Assembly (NCBI GenBank): GCA_948144175.1
Contig: CANXME010002127.1
Span: forward strand, 868,001 to 932,000
Source: Closterium sp. NIES-65
Taxonomy: Eukaryota > Streptophyta > Zygnematophyceae > Desmidiales > Closteriaceae
Reading direction: 5' to 3'
DNA: 64,000 bases
Shown here: positions 2,334 to 11,667 of the stretch, in pieces
Numbering within the stretch: the first letter of the stretch is position 1
Layout: every line of letters starts with the position of its first letter
The notes under the pieces: generated by a model
Databases searched by the model: none
Told to the model about the DNA's origin: nothing
Seen by the model: the letters and a program-made list of their open reading frames with translations, nothing else
Position numbers and translations under genes: made by a program

Positions 2334-2458
2334 AGTGAAGAATGAGGAATGAATGAACTAGCAAGCAGGTGGGTACAAGTAGGAAAACCTAGAAATGTTG
2401 TACCCCATATAGTCTACCCCACTACAGCCTACACAGACTATAGCATATAAGTTTGACA
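2334..2458 (-). repeat. E1 3' LTR
   Basis: Matches 11543-11667. Followed on its inner side by the polypurine tract (ATGGGGGTG on the minus strand). Flanked by GTTAC. Confidence 0.9.
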
Positions 2459-2689
2459 CACCCCCATAGGCAAAGTGGGGGAGAACAAGAGGTCACAAGA
2501 CCAGTCAAGCAAAGCAAAGCAAGCTCAGGGTGGATCACAACGTCACCACACAATCCGAGCACAAGAGCAAGGCCAAAAGGCCAGTTCACATGCAAGATCA
2601 TATATAAAGGTAAACAAGCAAGTGCAGGTATAGAAAGATCACAGTACAAGCAAGGTCAAGAAGTGAGCAAGTGAGGCCAAGTAGGCACA

Positions 2690-3946
2690 AGACCTAGCAT
2701 CGTACAGAAGCACCAGGCGGAAGTGCCTTGGTAAAGATATCAGCAGTGTTGGCCTCAGAGGTCACCTAAGCAAGGCGCAGCTGACCACGCTGCTGCAGCT
2801 CACGAGCAAGGAAGTAGCGAAGAGCAATGTGCTTTGTTCTGTGCTCTAGACTGTGCTCCCGACACAAGGCCAGCATGGCCTTGTTGTCTACGTACAGAAC
2901 TGGAGGAGAACGAGGCGGCTCTCCTAGGTCAGTCAGCAGATAGGTGAGCCAGCGTAGCTCCTGTGCAGCCATGGCCCCCGCGTAGATCTCAGCCTCACAG
3001 CTGGAGCCGAGGACAGAAGACGAGCAGGTTGACCGCCACAAAACAGAGCCGGAGCCAAGGCTGAAGGTGTAACCCTGTGACAACCGCTGCGTAGCCTGGT
3101 CGTAAGCCCAAGAAGCGTCTGCGTGACCTGTGAGGACCACTCAACGTCGCCCTCCAAGCACTAGCCCCATGCCCGACGTACTGCACAAGTAGCGCAACAC
3201 CCTCTTTGCTGCAGCCATGTGCTCTGGTCGGTGTCTCCCAGGAGCAACATAGCGTGCCAATATGCTGAGAGGGTATGCAAGGTCAGGTCGTGTGCAGGTC
3301 ATCAGGTACATGAGGCAGCCAACAAGCTCTGGGTACGGGCCACTCGGCTGTACGGACTCATCCAAAGGCAGAGCTGAGAGCGAGTGGCGAGTAGACAGAG
3401 GAGTGGCCTGAGGGTGAGGAGTACGTGAAGTCGAAGTGCTTAAGGACCTGCTGCACCATGTGTGACTGACTCAGGGTAATGGTGCGCTGTGCTCTGTCCC
3501 GGGTGATCTGCAAGCCAAGGTAGCTGCGCAGTTCACCCAGGTCTGTGCACGTGTGTCTCTTCTGCAGCTCGGACTTCACGTGGGCTAGTCCAGCAGTGTC
3601 AGCAGTGGCAAAGACCAAGTCGTCGACATACACGAGGATGTAGAACGGCGGCAAAGAGGTGTCAGTGCGCAGAAACAACGACGGGTCGGCAGTAGAAGGA
3701 GCAAACCCAAGAGCCGCAAGTGTAGTCCTCAGTGTGTCGTGCCACTCACGGGGCGCCTGGCGGAGGCCGTAGACTGGCCGCCGGAGGCTCCACTGGGTAC
3801 CAGGGGGAAACGACCCAGTGAAGCCAGGTGGGTGGCGTAGCTAGATCTCCTCGTACACGCTGCCCTGCAGGAAAGCTGTGCTGAAGTCAAGAGAGTGAAG
3901 CTCGTAGTCGCGCTGAGCGGCTATCTGCAGCAGCACCCAAAGAGTG
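2690..3946 (-). pseudogene. E1 pol, 3' part: RT palm and RNase H, broken
   Basis: Minus-strand remnant that continues from 8142 once E2 is removed. Reading 3946 to 2690: the RT block HSLDFSTAFLQGS near 3890, a stop in the next block near 3841, then WSLRRPVYGLRQAPREWHD near 3790-3735. The catalytic YVDDLVFAT lies near 3625-3600, and LGELRSYLGLQITRD near 3540-3500. A frameshift occurs near 3400, then the RNase H blocks TGHADASWA near 3130-3105, SSCEAEIYA near 3000-2975 and YVDNKAMLAL near 2895-2865. The last part (from about 2766) has a stop where other copies read through into VASEANTADVFTKAL. It is about 90% similar by eye to E2 and E8. Confidence 0.85.
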
Positions 3947-4075
3947 TGTGGAGAAAGGAAAACAGGAATCAAATGACTAAGGAAAGATTGGGTACAAATA
4001 CAACCCTAGAAACCCTGTACCCCATATGTGCTACCCCACTATAGCCTACAGCAACTATGTCATATAAATCTGACA
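3947..4075 (-). repeat. E2 3' LTR
   Basis: TGTGGAGAAAGG...AATCTGACA on the plus strand, identical by eye to 8013-8141. Left TSD GAGTG. Confidence 0.93.
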
Positions 4076-4281
4076 CACCCCCATAGGCAAAGTGGGGGAG
4101 AACAAGGGGTCACAAGACCAGTCAAGCAAAGCAAAGCAAGCTCAGGGTGGATCACAAAGTCACCACACAGTCCGAGCACAAGAGTAGGGCCAGAGGCCAG
4201 TTCACATGCAGGAGTACAGACATATATATAAAACTAGACAAGCAATAGCAGGCATATATATATGTCACAGTACAAGTGAAG

Positions 4282-7200
4282 TCAAGAGGAGAGCAAGTGA
4301 GGCAAGACAGGCACAAGACCCAGCTGGGTGCAAAAGCGCTGATGGTCACAAGGCGCGAGTGCCTTGGTGAACACATCAGCAGTGTTGGCCTCAGAGGCCA
4401 CGTACGCAAGTCGCAGCTGACCACGCTGCTGCAGCTCACGAGCAAGGAAGTAGCGGAGAGCAATGTGCTTCGTTCTGTGCTCCAAGCGCTGCTCTCGACA
4501 CAAGGCCAGCATGGCCTTGTTGTCTACGTACAGCACTGGAGGAGAACGAGGCGGCTCTCCAAGGTCAGTCAGCAGGTAGGTGAGCCAGCGAAGCTCCTGT
4601 GCAGCCATGGCCCCGGCGTAGATCTCAGCCTCACAACTGGAGCCAAGAACCGAAGACGAGCGAGTAGACCGCCACAAGACAGAGCCGGAACCAAGGCTGA
4701 AGGTGTAACCCTGTGACGACCGCTGCGTAGCCTGGTCGTCAGCCCAAGAAGCGTCCGCGTGGCCGGTAAGGACCACTGGACTCCGCCCTCCAAGCACTAG
4801 CCCCATGCCCGACGTGCTGCACAGGTAGCGCAATACCCTCTTCGCTGCAGCCATGTGCTCCGGTCTGTGTCTCCCAGGAGCAACATAGCGAGCAAGAATG
4901 CTCAGAGGGTATGCAAGGTCAGGTCGTGTGCAGGTCATCAGGTACATGAGGCAGCCAACAAGCTCTGCATACGGACCACTCGACTCTACGGACTCATCCG
5001 AAGGCAGAGCTGAGAGTGAGTGGCAAGTAGGCAGAGGAGTGGCCTGAGGCGAGGAGTACGTGAAGCCGAAGCGCTGAAGGACCTGCTGCACCATGTGTGA
5101 CTGAGTCAAGGTAATGGTGCGACGTGCTCTGTCCCGAGTGATCTGCAAGCCAAGGTAGCTGCGCAGTTCACCCAGGTCTGTGCACGTGTGTCTCTTCAAC
5201 AGCTCGGACTTCACGTAGGCAAGTCCAGCAGTGTCTGCTGTGGCAAAGACCAAGTCGTCGACGTACACGAGGATGTAGAACGGCGGCAGGGAAGTGTCGG
5301 TGCGAAGAAACAGCGACGGGTCAGCAGTAGAAGGAGCAAACCCAAGAGCCGCAAGCGTAGTCCTCAGTGTGTCGTGCCACTCACGCGGTGCCTGGCGGAG
5401 ACCGTAGACTGGCCGTCGGAGGCTCCACTGGGTGCCAGGAGGGAAAGTCCCAGTGAAGCCAGGTGGACGGCGAAGCCAGATCTCCTCGTGCAGGCTACCC
5501 TGCAAGAACGCAGTGCTGAAGTCGAGAGAGTGAAGCTCGTAGTCGCGCTGAGCGGCTATGTGCAGCAGCACCCGAAGAGTAGTCATCTTCGGGGTGGGAG
5601 AGAAGGTCTAAAAGTAGTCAACTCCCTGCCGCTGATTGAAGCCACGAGCAACGTACCGTGCCTTGAAGACAGGTGGAGAGCCGGGCGGCCGCTTCACCCT
5701 GAAGATCCACATGCCACTGACGATGTTCGCCCCAGGAGGGGGAACCGCGTCAACGTAGGTGCCTGTGGACTTCCAGGAAGCCATCTCTGCATCCATAGCT
5801 GCCTGCCACTGAGAGGAGTAGGGACCCTCTACGGCCTCCGCGTAAGAACGCGGAGTCGGGATGTCTAGTGCATCCGGGTCTCCCTCAGGGGCAAGCAGTA
5901 CAGACGCGAGATGAGGTGAAGCAGCCACTAGACACTGTAACTCCTCCTGCCTGTCCTCTAGGACGTCCGTGCCAAGAGCACACTCACCCCCGACGGACGG
6001 AGGACAGACAGACGCAGACTCAGCAACAAGACTAGCAGCGTAGTCGAGACGACAGCGAGCAGCAAAGTCGACGAGCTCAGCGACTAGAGCAGACGCAGCA
6101 GTGGACTCAAAAGAGGGGTCAGTGACGACACTAGCAAGCAGACGCGTGACAGTAGGACTGGCAGCACGAAGAGAGTCCGACTCAGGGTCGGCAAGCGCAG
6201 GAAGAGAGGACTCAGGAGGAGAAGGCAAAGGGGCACGCAGAGGAGCAGTGGACGGACGCAAAGACATCCGGTGCGTGCCAGGGACAGGAGGAGGACGTTG
6301 ACGCGAACTGCGACCACTAGCGCGAGCAGTGCGAACAGGCGACGTGGGACGAGACGCAGGCTCACGACGCTCAGTAAGACCTCCAGTAGGACCAGTGTAA
6401 GGAGAGGGAGCAGGCAGTGGAGAGGAGGGCTCCAGCAGGGACTGCGACTGGACAGGCGGTGGACCCTCTACTGGAGGAGAAAGACCAAAAACCTGCTGTA
6501 GGAGCGGAACGAAGTACGGCCGAGGCCGCGCGGCAGCTCCAGACGCAGCAGGGACAGCACCAGCACCCTCAGCGACAGCACCAGCGCCACCCACACCTCC
6601 AGCGGCAGGACCAACAGCAGTAGGCTCAGCACCAGCGCCCTCAGCAACTCCAGCACCAGGAGGACCCGCAGGTCCAGCAGCTCCGGGACCGGCAGCACCC
6701 GCACCCTCGAAGGTCGAAGAAGCTCCAGCTCCAGCTCCAGCAGCACCTCCAGACTCAGCAGCACGCCTCCAGCGGCGAGCGAACCACTCGCGCAGCTCCT
6801 GTGGAGAGAGGGGCTCCTGGCGAGACGCAGCAGCAGGAGAAACCCCATGCTCAGCAGCTCCAGACGCAGCACCCCCAGGCTCAGCAGCTCCCAGCTCAGC
6901 ACCCCCAGGCTCAGCAGCTCCCGACCCAGCACCCCCAGACCCAGCACCTCCAGGCACAGCACCCCCCGGCTCAGCACCCCCAGGCTCCGCACCCTCCGCA
7001 GTAGCACCCTCAGGCCCAGCACCCCCAGCAGTAGCACCCCCAGGCTCAGCACCCCCGCGCACAGCACCCCCAGAGTCAGCACCCCCAGGCTCAGCACTCG
7101 TGGCAGCACCAGAGTCACCAGTAACCTCGACCGGGTCAACGGCGTCTACCTGGGACACACCTGAGGGGGCAGGAACCTGAGGGGGGAGGGGGTCTACCGG

Positions 7201-7375
7201 GGGGGGAACCGGCACAAGGAAGTCCGGGGGAGGGGGGAGGGAAGGATTGCGGTAGGGGAAGAGACAGTAGAAGGGGACTGACTCGTCGAACGTGACGTCC
7301 TGGGAGGACAGAACACGACGAGAGGAGGGGTGGTAAAACTGCCACCCAGGGGCGTCAGTGGGGAAGCCAAGGAAG
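4282..7375 (-). pseudogene. E2 pol: integrase C-end, linker, RT and RNase H, one in-frame stop
   Basis: One continuous minus-strand frame from near 7215 to the stop at 4282, with a single TAG (5608-5610) where other copies have Gln in VDYFQTFSPTPK. In order: integrase tail (SSQDVTFDESVPFY near 7310-7270, just out of frame), minisatellite linker (GAEPG units, 7105-6860), and REWFARRWRRAAE near 6795-6755. RT N-terminal blocks follow (GMWIFRVKRPPGSP near 5715-5675), then after the stop FSTAFLQGSLHEEIWLRRPP, catalytic YVDDLVFAT near 5260-5235, and RNase H with TGHADASWADDQATQ, SSCEAEIYA, YVDNKAMLAL and NTADVFTKAL. With the single stop the RT/RNase H is the least damaged minus-strand copy in the window. 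Confidence 0.88.
6860..7105 (-). repeat. 15-bp coding minisatellite in E2 linker
   Basis: About 16 units of a CAGGCTCAGCACCCC-type repeat (plus strand), encoding GAEPG/GAELG-type pentapeptides on the minus strand. Confidence 0.85.
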
Positions 7376-8000
7376 GCAGCAGCGGGGGTGGTGGTGGTGG
7401 TGGCAGCAGTGGCGGAGACGGTGGTGGTGGTGCCAGCGGTGGTGGTGGAGGCAGCGGCGGTGGTGGAGGCGGCGGAGGTGGAGGCGGTGGAGGCGGCAGC
7501 GGAGGAGGCGGTGGTGGTGGAGGAGGTGGAGCTGGTTGAGGTGGTACCCAGCAGCGTAGCGGCGGTGGTGGTGGCCAGCGCTCGCAGCGGCAGCAGCAGC
7601 AGCGCTCGCGGGACATCCCTCCGCCTCAGCAGCTTCGTGAGTGGTACGCTGGGCGTCAGAGGGGTGGGGGCACTGGTCCCTGCACCTACGTTCTTCGTTC
7701 TGGCGACCGCGCGGGTGAGCAGTGTGGGGGTGCCCTCGCCACCCAGCGCTGCTTTGGCTGCCTGACAGACGCTTGGCGTCAGCAGTTCCCTGGGGCTAGT
7801 TAGATCCCTCGCTGGGATGAGCTTCTCAGGGCTGGTGTAGCGATCTTTGATCTTGATTTTGATGCTATCCTTGCTGCTATGTATGTTGTGGATTATAGTG
7901 AGGAGAATGAGGGTTACCGTTGTTTCCAGCCCGACCCGGGCATTGGTACTGCTGCGCTAGGTGCTTGTGAGGCTGCTGCTCTAGGTGCCAGTGCGTTTGT
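7376..8000 (+). pseudogene. Inverted gag C-terminus and protease start inside E2
   Basis: Plus-strand sequence within the minus-strand E2. It starts in the glycine-rich gag tail (GGTGGTGGTGG-type codons, 7380-7545), then RDIPPPQQLREWYAGR near 7610-7650. The zinc motif follows (CTYVLRSGDRAGEQC, then H/C spacing degraded by GALATQRC in place of the His), then LTDAWRQQFPGAS and a TAG near 7801. It continues through FDLDFDAILAAMY to PDPGIGTAALGA near 7930-7965, the spacer before the protease. It closely matches E8 43090-43530. It ends in GTGCTCT, which is also the end of the PBS complement, so gag and PBS share a 7-bp overlap at the junction. Confidence 0.88.
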
Positions 8001-8012
8001 GCTCTGATACCA

Positions 8013-8141
8013 TGTGGAGAAAGGAAAACAGGAATCAAATGACTAAGGAAAGATTGGGTACAAATACAACCCTAGAAACCCTGTACCCCATATGTGCTAC
8101 CCCACTATAGCCTACAGCAACTATGTCATATAAATCTGACA
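8013..8141 (-). repeat. E2 5' LTR
   Basis: Preceded by GCTCTGATACCA, the complement of the PBS, and followed by TSD GAGTG. Confidence 0.93.
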
Positions 8142-10731
8142 GAGTGATCATCTTCGGGGTGGGAGAGAAGGTATGAAAGTAGTCAACTCTCTGCCGCTGA
8201 CTGAAGCCTCGAGCCACGTAACGCGCCTTGAAGACAGGCGGAGAACCCGGCGGCCGCTTCACCCTAAAAATCCACATGCCACTGACGATGTTCGCCCCAG
8301 GTGGGGGAACCTCGTCGACGTAGGTGCCTGTGGACTTCCAGGAAGCCATCTCTGCGTCCATGGCTGACTGCCACTTTGAGGAGTAGGGACCCTCGATCGC
8401 CTCAGCGTACGATCGAGGAGTTGGGATGTCTTGTGCATCCGGGTCTCCCTCAGGGGCAATCAGCGTGGACACGACATGAGGCAAAGCAGCAGCAAAACAC
8501 TGGAACTCCTCCTGCCTGTCCTCAAGGACGTCCGTGCTAAGAGCACAGTCACCCCCGACGGACAGAGGACAGACAGACTCAGACTCAACAATAAGACTAG
8601 TAGCGTAGTCTAGACGACAGCGAGCAGCAAAGTCGACAAGCCCAGCAACCAAGGCAGACGCAGCAGTGGACTCAAAGGAAGGGTCAGTGTCAACAGTAGC
8701 CAGGAGACGCGTCACAGTAGGACTGGTAGCACGAAGAGAGTCAGACTCTGGGTCAGCAAGGACTGGAAGAGAGGACTCTGGAGGAGACGGCAACAGGACA
8801 CGCAGAGGAGCAGTTGAAGGACGCAGTGCCATCTGGTGTGTGCCTGGGACCGCAGGAGGACGCGGACGTGAAGCACGACCACTTGTGCAAGCAGCACGAA
8901 TAGGCGACGCAGGACGAGACACAGGCTCATGACGCTCAGCAAGATCTCCAGTAGGACCAGTGTAGGGAGAAGGAGTAGGTAGGGGGGAGGCGGGCTGTAA
9001 CTGTGACCGCGACTGGACAGGCTGTGGACACGCTAAGGGAGGAGCAGGACCAGTAGAGGGCGGGAGACCAAGAACCTGCTCAAGGAGCGGAACGAAGTAT
9101 GGCCTCGGCCACGCAGCGCCTCCAGAACCAGCAGGGACAGCAACAGTACCCCCAGCGGCAGCACCAGCGCCAGCAGCACCTCCAGCTCCAACAGCGCCAA
9201 CTCCAGCACCCTCAGACGCACCAGCGCCAGCAGAACCACCAGCGCCAACACCCCCAGCAGCTCCAGCTCCAGCAGCTTTAGCAGCACCAACTCCAGTAGG
9301 ACCGGCAGCTCCAGTATCGCCAGCAGCTCCAGCAGTACCTCCAGCAAGACTAACTCCAGCAGCCCCAGCAGCACCCCCAGTCCCAGCAGCTCCAGTACCG
9401 CCAATACGAGCACCTCCGGGACCAGCAGCAAAAGTAGTACCTCCAGCTTCAGCAGCACGGCTCTAGTGCCAGGCAAACCACTCGCGCAGCTCTTGCCGAG
9501 AGAGTAGCTCCCGCCTCGACGAAGCACCGCGAGAGACCACACGAGCAGACCCAGCACCCCCAGGCTCCACACCCCCAGGCTCAGCGCCCCCAGGCTCAGC
9601 ACCCCCAGGCTCAGCACCCCCAGGCTCAGCACCCCTAGACTCAGCACCCCCAGGCTCCGCACCCCCAGGCTCAGCACCTCCAGACCCGGCACCCGCAGGC
9701 TCAGCACCTCTAGCAGCACCATAGTGAACAGCTACCTCGACTGGCTCGACAGCGTCTACGTGGGACACACCTGAAGGGGCAGGACCCTGAGGGGGGAGGG
9801 GGTCTAACGTGGGAGGACCTGGCGCAAGGAAGAGCGGCGGCGGGGGGACGGGCGCAGTGCGGTAGGGGAAGAGACGGTAGTTAGGCACCGCCTCGTCAAA
9901 GGTGACATCCTGGGAGGACAGAACACGGCGCGAGGTGGGGTGGTAAAACTGTCACCCAGGCGCGTCAGGGGGGGAAGCCAAGGAAGACGCAGGGAACAGC
10001 ACGGGGGGACAGCTTGTCCGCAGACAAGTCGCGGACAAACGCCCGAGATCCCCAGACCTGAAACGCAGACGCATCGCCAACCTTCCCTGTCCACCGCAAG
10101 GTGGGTGAGGTCTCCGGCAAGGAGACCCGTGGCTGAAGGTTGAGCTGATGCGCTGCGTACTGAACCGCAAACGGCCACAAAAAATGGGGAGCAGCCGCAT
10201 GGATCATGGACATACGAGCAACGTCCATGACCATGCCAATGCGGCGCTCAGCAGTCCCATTTTGCTGTGGAGAGGCCGGAAGCGTGAAGATCTGGCGGAT
10301 GCCCTGTGCACGACAGAAGGCTCCCAGACGGGCAGAGGAAAACTCCCCGCCTCTATCAGAGTGCAAATGCAGAACAAGAAAGTCTGAGCCGAAACTCTCT
10401 CCGAGCTGGAGACGAGCGGCACGGATCCAGTCGATCAACACCTCAGTGACGTCACCCTTGCTGCGCAAGGGGAACACCGTGGTTTAACGCGAGTAGTCGT
10501 CAACCACCAACAGGAAGTAACGCTCGTGACCCTGGCCACGGACGCGGGGAGGGCTCCACACGTCCATGTGAAGAGTCTGCAGCGGAGCCTCTGTCGGAGG
10601 AAACTCGGAGGAGTGAGGGGCGGCGCACTGCCCTATCGTACTGTAGGAACTGCTGGAGGTCATCGACCCAGACCTCAAAGTCGAACAGCACGACCCTCAG
10701 CATCAAAGGTGAGGACACTGGGGGTAGCCGT
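8142..10731 (-). pseudogene. E1 gag-start/integrase/linker/RT N-terminus, with internal deletion
   Basis: From the right: a gag start region whose ATG has become ACG (10729-10731), then about 30 gag residues ending DDLQQFLQYDRA near 10630. This is joined directly to integrase sequence (HMDVWSPP near 10560). The junction shares AGGGC with both parents, so gag, protease and GAG-pre-integrase are missing. Integrase keeps the second Asp (LHSDRGGEF near 10360-10330) and the Glu (QNGTAERRIG near 10260-10230). A stop lies where VDDYSRYTTVF is expected (near 10486). Next come the 15-bp minisatellite linker (9545-9712) and the RT N-terminal blocks WQSAMDAEMASWKS and GMWIFRVKRPPGSP (about 8380-8240), up to the E2 insertion point. 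Confidence 0.85.
9545..9712 (-). repeat. 15-bp coding minisatellite in E1 integrase-RT linker
   Basis: Tandem copies of a 15-mer (plus strand CAGGCTCAGCACCCC) encode GAEPG units on the minus strand. The same array occurs in the same place in E2, E4, E5, E8, E9 and E10 with different copy number. Confidence 0.85.
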
Positions 10732-10740
10732 GACTGCAGT

Positions 10741-11542
10741 GGTCTAGCAAGGAGTGATCTCACCAGTCCGAGTAAGTAGAGCCGGGGCGCGCCGGTAGGA
10801 ATAGTAGCGGCTCGACGGCAGGGTGGCTCGGCGGCTCGGCTGCTGGGCGGCTTGGCAGCTTGGCTGTTGGGCGGCTCGGCTGGTGGGCGGCTCGAGTGCT
10901 GGGCGGCTTTGCGGCTCGGCGGCTCAGCTGCTGGGCGGCTGAGCTGTGAAGGGGCCGGTAGAGGCGGCGACGGGGCCGGTAGAGGCGGCGATGGGGCCGC
11001 GAAGGGCGGCGACGGGGCCGATAGAGGCGGCGACGGGGCCGCGAAGGCGGCGACGGAGCCGCTAGAGGCGGCGACAGGGCCGCGAAGAGCGGCGACGGGG
11101 CCGCTAGGGGCGGCGACGGGGCCACGAAGGGCGGCGAGGTGGTCGCGACGGGCGGCGTCGGGGCCTCCAGGGGCGACGACGGGGCCGTTAGGGGCAGCGA
11201 CGGGGCCGCAGAGGGGCCGTAAGGGGCCTAGAGGGGCGGCGACGGGGCCTAGAGGGGCGGCGACGAGGCCGCAAAGGGGTCGTAAGGGGCCTAGAGGGGC
11301 GGCGACGGGGCCGCTAGGAGCGGCGACGGGGCCGCGAAGGGGCCGCGAGGGGCCTAGAGGGCCGGCGACGGGGCCGCAAAGGATGGCGACGGGGCCACTA
11401 AGGGTGGCGCGAGGGGCCGTGAGAGGGGCCGCTAAGAGAGCGCGACGTGAGGGCGGTCTACGGGGCGCGCCTCGGGTAGGAAAAATCGAGTTAGGTGGTG
11501 GGCCCTGAGAAGCGTTCCCACGAGGGAACCTACTCTATACCA
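10741..11542 (-). repeat. E1 GC-rich leader with tandem repeats
   Basis: Lies between PBS and gag start. It is made of degenerate repeats of GGGGCCGCTAGGGGCGGCGA type on the plus strand. No coding support: long frames here are a product of the composition. A CTGGTGAG sequence near 10757-10765 (minus strand) lies just upstream of gag and resembles a splice donor shared with E4, E8 and E9. Confidence 0.6.
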
Positions 11543-11667
11543 TGTGAAGAATGAGGAATGAATGAACTAGCAAGCAGGTGGGTACAAGTAGGAAAACCTA
11601 GAAATGTTGTACCCCATATAGTCTACCCCAGTACAGCCTACACAGACTATAGCATATAAGTTTGACA
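11543..11667 (-). repeat. E1 5' LTR
   Basis: TGTGAAGAATG...TTTGACA on the plus strand. The PBS complement CTATACCA ends at 11542, and the TSD GTTAC follows at 11668-11672. Confidence 0.9.

Follow-up and report, generated by a model that had tools for sequence, protein, structure and literature searches.

The window, a 64,000-nucleotide stretch of a Closterium sp. NIES-65 contig, contains a Ty1/copia-type element on the minus strand, designated E2. It lies inside E1 (2335-11667), a relative of the same kind that is also on the minus strand. The LTRs of E1, near 2335-2458 and 11544-11667, are 99% alike, and E1 has its own drifted primer binding site (PBS), TGGTATAGAGT. The features of E2 are listed below.

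3947-8141, minus strand: E2, Ty1/copia-type element
3942-3946: target site duplication (TSD) GAGTG, left copy, read from the flank
3947-4075, minus strand: 3' LTR of E2, 129 bp, identical to 8013-8141
4282-7375, minus strand: integrase tail, spacer and reverse transcriptase (RT) part of pol in element sense orientation (RVT_2, SH3_retrovirus)
7371-7383: inner joint, CTTCC of integrase (7371-7375), then a GCAGCAGC stretch, then gag; found in E2 only
7376-8005, plus strand: inverted end of gag, approximately 1937-2560 of the unrearranged copy in L020, from comparison with unrearranged copies
8001-8005: GCTCT common to gag, the PBS complement and the host initiator tRNA
8001-8012, minus strand: PBS TGGTATCAGAGC, a perfect 12-nt copy of the 3' end of the host initiator tRNA (CCA added)
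8013-8141, minus strand: 5' LTR of E2, 129 bp, identical to 3947-4075
8142-8146: TSD GAGTG, right copy, read from the flank

Anatomy of E2 and its two joints

Comparison with Pfam located RVT_2 at 4285-5607 on the minus strand (E 4.8e-39) and, upstream of it in element sense, the SH3-like domain of integrase (SH3_retrovirus, E 4.8e-06) with a score of 26.8, just under the curated cut-off of 27; E2 retains the integrase tail alone. The RVT_2 domain, integrase before RT, the LTRs, the 5-bp TSD and the initiator-tRNA PBS identify E2 as a whole as a Ty1/copia LTR retrotransposon. The minus-strand pol, the LTRs identical over 129 bp and GAGTG on both sides agree with the original prediction. E2 has two LTRs only, and a third internal LTR is absent.

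The inverted end of gag that had been proposed between PBS and integrase was confirmed by its match in opposite orientation to the gags of unrearranged copies, in which this stretch is oriented like pol. Over 446 bp the identity was 96.6% to L009 and 96.2% to L020, both of them unrearranged copies compared at one gag end. The E2 piece contains two in-frame stops (7537-7539 and 7801-7803). It ends before the protease motif (DSG, downstream in L030) and thus lacks the protease start originally assigned to it. The zinc motif likewise found no backing, as no Pfam family was detected in the two stretches searched, 7540-7800 and 7804-8007, and no zinc knuckle was recognised.

At the outer joint, all 11 comparable unrearranged loci pass from GCTCT into CAGGT.. 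(CAGGTACT), where E2 has GATACCA, the PBS complement. The homology is therefore GCTCT, 5 bp, or CGCTCT, 6 bp, in some gag alleles. The 7-bp overlap GTGCTCT/AGAGCAC first read here is too long by two bases, the extra GT/AC being gag's own; a tRNA with GUGCUCU, which would give 7 shared bp, was refuted by the initiator tRNA gene sequences. Long homology at the joint was rejected on the same 5 bp, and a DNA hairpin there on a z-score of +1.5.

At the inner joint, 11 unrearranged loci diverge from E2 directly upstream of CTTCC (7371-7375), which places the predicted junction with integrase near 7375 where it had been expected. In a 12th locus, L014 (C1039), the similarity extends a few bases beyond the joint, so that the integrase donor of E2 may have carried the L014 variant. 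The bases past the joint that this more distant relative has in common with E2 are CTGCTGCCTTCC. A query spanning the inner joint matched at full length in E2 alone among the best 40 of 1190 candidates scored; C1039 matched 79 of its 121 bases at 89% and is an ordinary relative. A genome pattern search allowing up to 3 mismatches returned no place besides E2. Reversed-pattern controls for the outer and inner joints gave no matches, which makes chance a poor explanation of the joints.

Recurrence of the outer joint and diversity of the inner ends

The genome search for the two junctions gave different answers for each: the outer joint recurred at 18 places within 2 mismatches, and the inner joint of E2 was found once. 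Thirteen of the 18 are exact: E2 itself, a single insertion present in triplicate (C1223, C1902 and C2285) and nine more. Opening of the outer-joint places, a set that leaves out C595 and C1819, identified 13 separate insertions at the main gag site (E2, C1755 and C2061 included), whose LTRs are of several types and whose gags represent several alleles. A 100-base query of the outer joint was scored at 39 places besides E2, of which 10 covered at least 86 bases at 82-90%; in the eight of these that were examined the joint was identical and the LTRs of several types. C1755 has GCGCTCT at the joint, and C1759 uses a second GCTCT site 24 bp downstream. The three places of the C1223 insertion (L022-L024) have both joints and approximately 1.4 kb of flank in common at 97.8-99.1% identity; since the flanks are the same, L022-L024 represent one insertion copied with its surroundings, and their independent spread was rejected.

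The inner ends were read in L020 coordinates for 12 insertions (C1755 and C1759 are outside this set), with X as the position down to which the inverted part extends from 2560, and Y as the start of the sense part:

E2: X 1937, Y 3873
C718: X 163 or slightly less, Y 6664
C1903: X 130, Y 4434
C947: X 1681, Y 5693
C1223: X 2388, Y 5933
C1652: X 130, Y 6155
C520: X 2280, Y 6702
C1724: X 1095, Y 4771
C2293: X about 131, Y 3920
C1674: X 2122, Y 5303
C1739: X 1124, Y 2543
C2061: X 2243, Y 2929 (from a 47-bp match of 79%)

All 12 are distinct, and none is common to two separate insertions. In C1903 and C1652 the limit of the inverted part coincides to the base with the end of the PBS belonging to the element itself, and in C2293, judged by eye, it lies within approximately 1 base of that end. 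If ends were evenly spread, the chance of three of 12 falling so close to the PBS would be approximately 2e-6, a figure computed after the data had been seen.

Since the outer joint falls on one and the same base in separate insertions and the inner ends read all differ, the inverted gag at the PBS is a recurrent replication error with a hotspot and not a propagating family. Of the original alternatives, a propagating family or a one-off product, neither therefore describes the case precisely, as the outer joint is found in 13 insertions and 12 of 12 inner joints differ. For E2, an inverted-module family sharing both joints at different target sites was rejected because its inner joint was found once within 3 mismatches.

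In the five copies read at both ends the TSDs are 5 bp (GAGTG, GTTCG, GGCCT, GCAGT and CTTAT) and the LTRs 99.2-100% identical. The LTRs of L024, a duplicate of the C1223 insertion, are 94.9% alike over 118 bp, indicating that the rearranged copies are not all young. These results bear on an origin by chromosomal inversion and deletion after insertion, through break repair. Two breakpoints with short homology, as also seen in end joining, would suit such an origin; against it, the outer base is identical and always at the PBS in separate insertions with different LTRs, the LTRs and TSDs of the five copies are intact, and L022-L024 show duplication of a finished copy rather than an origin of the inversion. 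Break repair is therefore hardly credible, in line with the first assessment that a post-insertion inversion was unlikely. Misassembly is similarly far-fetched: the analysis drew on the assembly alone, which is the point in its favour, but the same joint is present on many contigs with different neighbours and that of E2 lies inside a 3.07-Mb contig.

The history of the inverted gags was addressed with trees that left out L022-L024, for which the gag piece is short, and duplicate extractions of the same locus. In a tree of 29 gag ends, 6 of them inverted, supported branches forced at least 3 label changes, and in a tree of 36, with 13 inverted, at least 4. The inverted label was nevertheless clustered, with 3 (29-row tree) and 1 (36-row tree) of 500 shuffles as low, since eight of the inverted gags are close relatives; this clustering leaves room for a shared origin inside one group. 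The gags of E2 and C1755 group with normal gags, and that of E2 differs from normal L030 and normal L036 at 6 of 440 positions each. An identity near 0.44 for L022 and hundreds of differences for L035 are probably shifts of an ungapped comparison and were not used. The inverted gag of C718 is identical over the 320 bases compared to that of the normal element hosting the C718 insertion. Furthermore, the gag/protease border of the C718 group (L041:6087-6266) is identical over 180 bp in all of the best 40 of 707 candidates, which suggests a very recent burst of the C718 subfamily. The inverted copies are accordingly read as rare by-products of active subfamilies.

The C718 copy (L041:1227-4852) has an antisense gag open frame of 790 aa ending at a TGA formed by the PBS joint. 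A functional antisense gag was considered and rejected for this copy, since a fresh copy would be open anyway and the frame is no evidence of function.

An inverted-gag founder could also have arisen once and spread, with later internal deletions giving each copy its own inner joint. The constancy of the outer joint to the base, the eight inverted copies with closely related gags, the clustered label and the open C718 frame ending at the PBS are in keeping with such a founder, and all inner ends would fit nested deletions if it had X of 130 or less and Y of 2543 or less. Opposed to it are the E2 and C1755 gags that sit with normal gags, the second GCTCT site of C1759 and the GCGCTCT of C1755, the abundance in normal form of the subfamily to which the eight belong (the 40 of 40 scored borders above), the use of other acceptors in pol, and the absence of any inner joint common to separate insertions among the 12 read. 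A single founder is thus unlikely in general, and a founder with later internal deletions within the C718 subfamily is the less likely explanation there.

The PBS at the joint and the host initiator tRNA

The host initiator tRNA gene ends ..GATCGAAACC..GCTCTGATA (+CCA) in all 23 places found with a pattern fixed on CTCTGATA, other endings being outside the search. The bases before CTCTGATA are TCG in 14 places, TGG in 6, TTG in 2 and CCG in 1, and tRNA-Met was called by ARAGORN in 6 of 6 loci scanned. The last 12 nt of the initiator tRNA with CCA copy exactly to TGGTATCAGAGC, the PBS at E2 and at the joints. The native PBS of the fetched copies is TGGTATAGAGC in 9 of the 11 where it was readable; L011 carries the tRNA-perfect form. 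Genome-wide, PBSs with ..CATGTG (first base other than A required) numbered 6601 in native form versus 846 in tRNA-perfect form. The family is thus abundant although, in most copies counted, the PBS has lost a base or carries a substitution when compared with the initiator tRNA.

A genome pattern search for the gag joint combined with the most frequent native form of the PBS gave no place, and the other native form, GATTCCA, was at none of the 18 outer-joint places, though it was within reach of the pattern that found them. Rows with tRNA-perfect PBSs were classed by comparing 19 letters with four references, at most 4 mismatches being allowed. Among the first 100 of the 846, internal gag or pol follows the PBS in 11, inverted in 5 of these and direct in 6; a further 40 are without a reference match and the remainder are UTR-like. 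The six direct rows are short matches only, and four of them are paired on two contigs, where the members of a pair may be mutual copies. The first 100 of the 6601 native rows, examined by eye, contained no rearranged case and one row of unknown origin. The extra C in the PBS was rejected as proof of tRNA copying by itself, being weakened by the 846 places with the tRNA-perfect form, and because of these places the comparison was moved within one LTR subfamily.

The subfamily, defined by the LTR end TGTGNAANCAAAG, contains 58 tRNA-perfect PBSs, of which 48 lead into an ordinary UTR or a close variant. The other 10 comprise five with the gag joint, two with a pol site (one opened as L068) and three with other sequence (C1977, C2005 and C2052), so that seven of the 10 lead into identified inverted gag or pol. 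The native form, TGGAATCAGAGC, occurs at 677 places of the subfamily, and no rearranged native PBS was present among the first 100 of these. A filter excluding UTRs, which passes 8 of the 10 known non-UTR tRNA-perfect rows, returned for the native form across the genome two places, both resembling UTRs with one changed base. Rearranged places under this filter were 8 of 58 for the tRNA-perfect form versus 0 of 677 for the native form (Fisher p 9e-10). Within a single element, C1652 and C1903 keep their own RNA-type PBS, in native form, at the inner end, and the outer PBS hence differs from that of the RNA. The PBS at the joint is thus a copy of the tRNA and not the RNA's own PBS, the evidence being statistical, and direct within C1652 and C1903.

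If the PBS of the element RNA had been TGGTATCAGAGC to begin with, a template switch from that RNA would produce the same joint without copying of tRNA. Templates of this kind exist: the tRNA-perfect form occurs with ..CATGTG at the 846 places and is also present in L011, and since 48 of the 58 tRNA-perfect PBSs in the subfamily lead into an ordinary UTR, the parent of E2 may have had such a PBS. The form is, however, carried by only 48 of about 725 ordinary places in the subfamily; no native-form rearranged joint was seen either in the first 100 of the 677 or with the filter that passes 8 of 10 known rows; and C1652 and C1903 retain a native, different PBS at the inner end. This origin is consequently very unlikely.

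The main gag site was not the only acceptor. Four further tRNA-perfect PBSs lead into inverted pol or gag, near 5056, 5007 and 3060 and at the second gag site. For each of the three pol acceptors, one or more references share GCTC or GCTCT with the tRNA copy, a comparison in which only L066-L068 were informative, E2 and L069/L070 having matched the wrong place. In a fifth place, L070, approximately 16-20 nt of inverted gag are followed by sense pol. The tRNA copy extends beyond nt 12 in none of the opened inverted joints at which acceptor and tRNA differ; the patterns required 12 nt, so shorter copies are not covered by this count. The gag/protease border was the most used acceptor among the sites opened. 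Pairing energy was rejected as the cause of this hotspot: in RNA-RNA calculations on L020 the used gag site ranks tenth, below a better site 23 bp upstream, indicating that pairing alone does not explain it.

At C27:49471, C50:97682, C160:2039317 and other places a tRNA-perfect PBS is followed by internal sequence in normal orientation, as judged from short matches only. These direct-orientation cases are probably the direct-deletion counterparts of the inverted copies.

A proposed origin in plus-strand transfer

The results make it likely that E2 is the integrated product of a mis-primed plus-strand transfer. Reverse transcriptase would make plus-strand strong-stop DNA (U3-R-U5) and continue for 12 nt into the primer tRNA, so that the strand finishes in ...TGGTATCAGAGC at its 3' end. 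The last 4-5 nt of this end would anneal to GCTCT at the gag/protease border of the sense RNA instead of to the PBS complement of the minus strand. Gag would then be copied backwards from the sense RNA to yield antisense gag. By switching once more, this time to the integrase part of minus-strand cDNA, and extending to the 3' LTR, the strand would become a product with two good LTRs able to integrate normally. Sense RNA as the wrong template would give inversions and minus-strand cDNA direct deletions. In three copies the inner end lies at the PBS of the RNA itself, which fits an RNA template trimmed to the PBS with R-U5 removed. We infer the order of steps, RNA as template and the first, 'dead end', strong-stop DNA as primer from the anatomy of the copies, and the need for two successive jumps was counted against the mechanism. 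The original suggestion that strands were switched at the PBS while the element was being reverse transcribed, ahead of its integration, is thereby supported, and the folding of the product back on itself is unnecessary.

Internal inversions with intact ends are known from inverted or deleted retroviral proviruses and autointegration products, and autointegration joins an LTR end to an internal site. E2 resembles the inverted proviruses in its internal inversion and intact ends; autointegration was rejected since it is the PBS and not an LTR end that is joined internally. TR-GAG and other non-autonomous LTR elements are short and have kept gag without full pol. The E2-type copies are similarly short with gag and without full pol, but unlike TR-GAG their gag is antisense and they have no shared inner structure. 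Complex insertions in Triticeae, identified from their TSDs and the similarity of their outer LTRs, have been ascribed to reverse transcription with aberrant template switching (PMC1950507). The copies described here are alike in template switching, TSDs and similar outer LTRs; in the Triticeae cases as presented in that source two elements are fused around a third internal LTR, whereas E2 has one module inverted at the PBS with a joint recurring at one base.

The scheme for Ty1 and Ty3 is outlined in PMC5371799, which cites the original strong-stop papers by Lauermann and Boeke. Plus-strand strong-stop DNA made first stops after 12 nt of the priming tRNA and is then displaced, a dead end, so the PBS does not inherit tRNA sequence. 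Consistent with this scheme (PMC5371799), the PBS of most copies here has drifted from the tRNA and the rearranged joints have an exact 12-nt copy. In contrast to it, the tRNA-bearing product in Closterium sits in integrated, rearranged copies, where mis-priming is the probable cause, and some ordinary copies keep the tRNA form (the 48 of about 725 in the one subfamily). The rearranged copies may even be fossils of this dead-end DNA, a plus-strand strong stop tagged with tRNA that mis-primed on internal sites; on that reading we are evenly divided. Ribosyl-phosphate on A64 or G64 is described in eukaryotic initiator tRNA (PMC7694415). In our own numbering base 64 of the Closterium tRNA is C in 15, G in 6 and T in 2 of 23 gene copies; a purine modification at this position was rejected as the cause of the 12-nt stop since it does not suit most gene copies, the base being mostly C, and the base at position 64 slightly weakens the fossil reading.

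Among the matches listed in a literature search by title and abstract opening, in which subscription journals were thinly covered, no description was found of a recurrent inverted gag joined to the PBS or of antisense gag in LTR retrotransposons, which speaks weakly for novelty. What is understood of plus-strand transfer in LTR retrotransposons comes largely from yeast. A tRNA-perfect PBS is a natural tag that separates strands made on tRNA from those made on element RNA, and it discriminates because most resident PBSs have drifted; the old question of whether tRNA-bearing strong-stop DNA is ever used can thereby be addressed by counts in any genome with drifted PBSs. The mechanism would also account for a class of elements with inverted, antisense gag, which might otherwise be annotated wrongly as odd families. 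If the fossil reading is correct, this genome would record the stop of the tRNA copy, the frequency with which the tag is inherited in ordinary copies and the hot acceptor sites, and would provide a genome-wide test of the Ty1/Ty3 model outside yeast.
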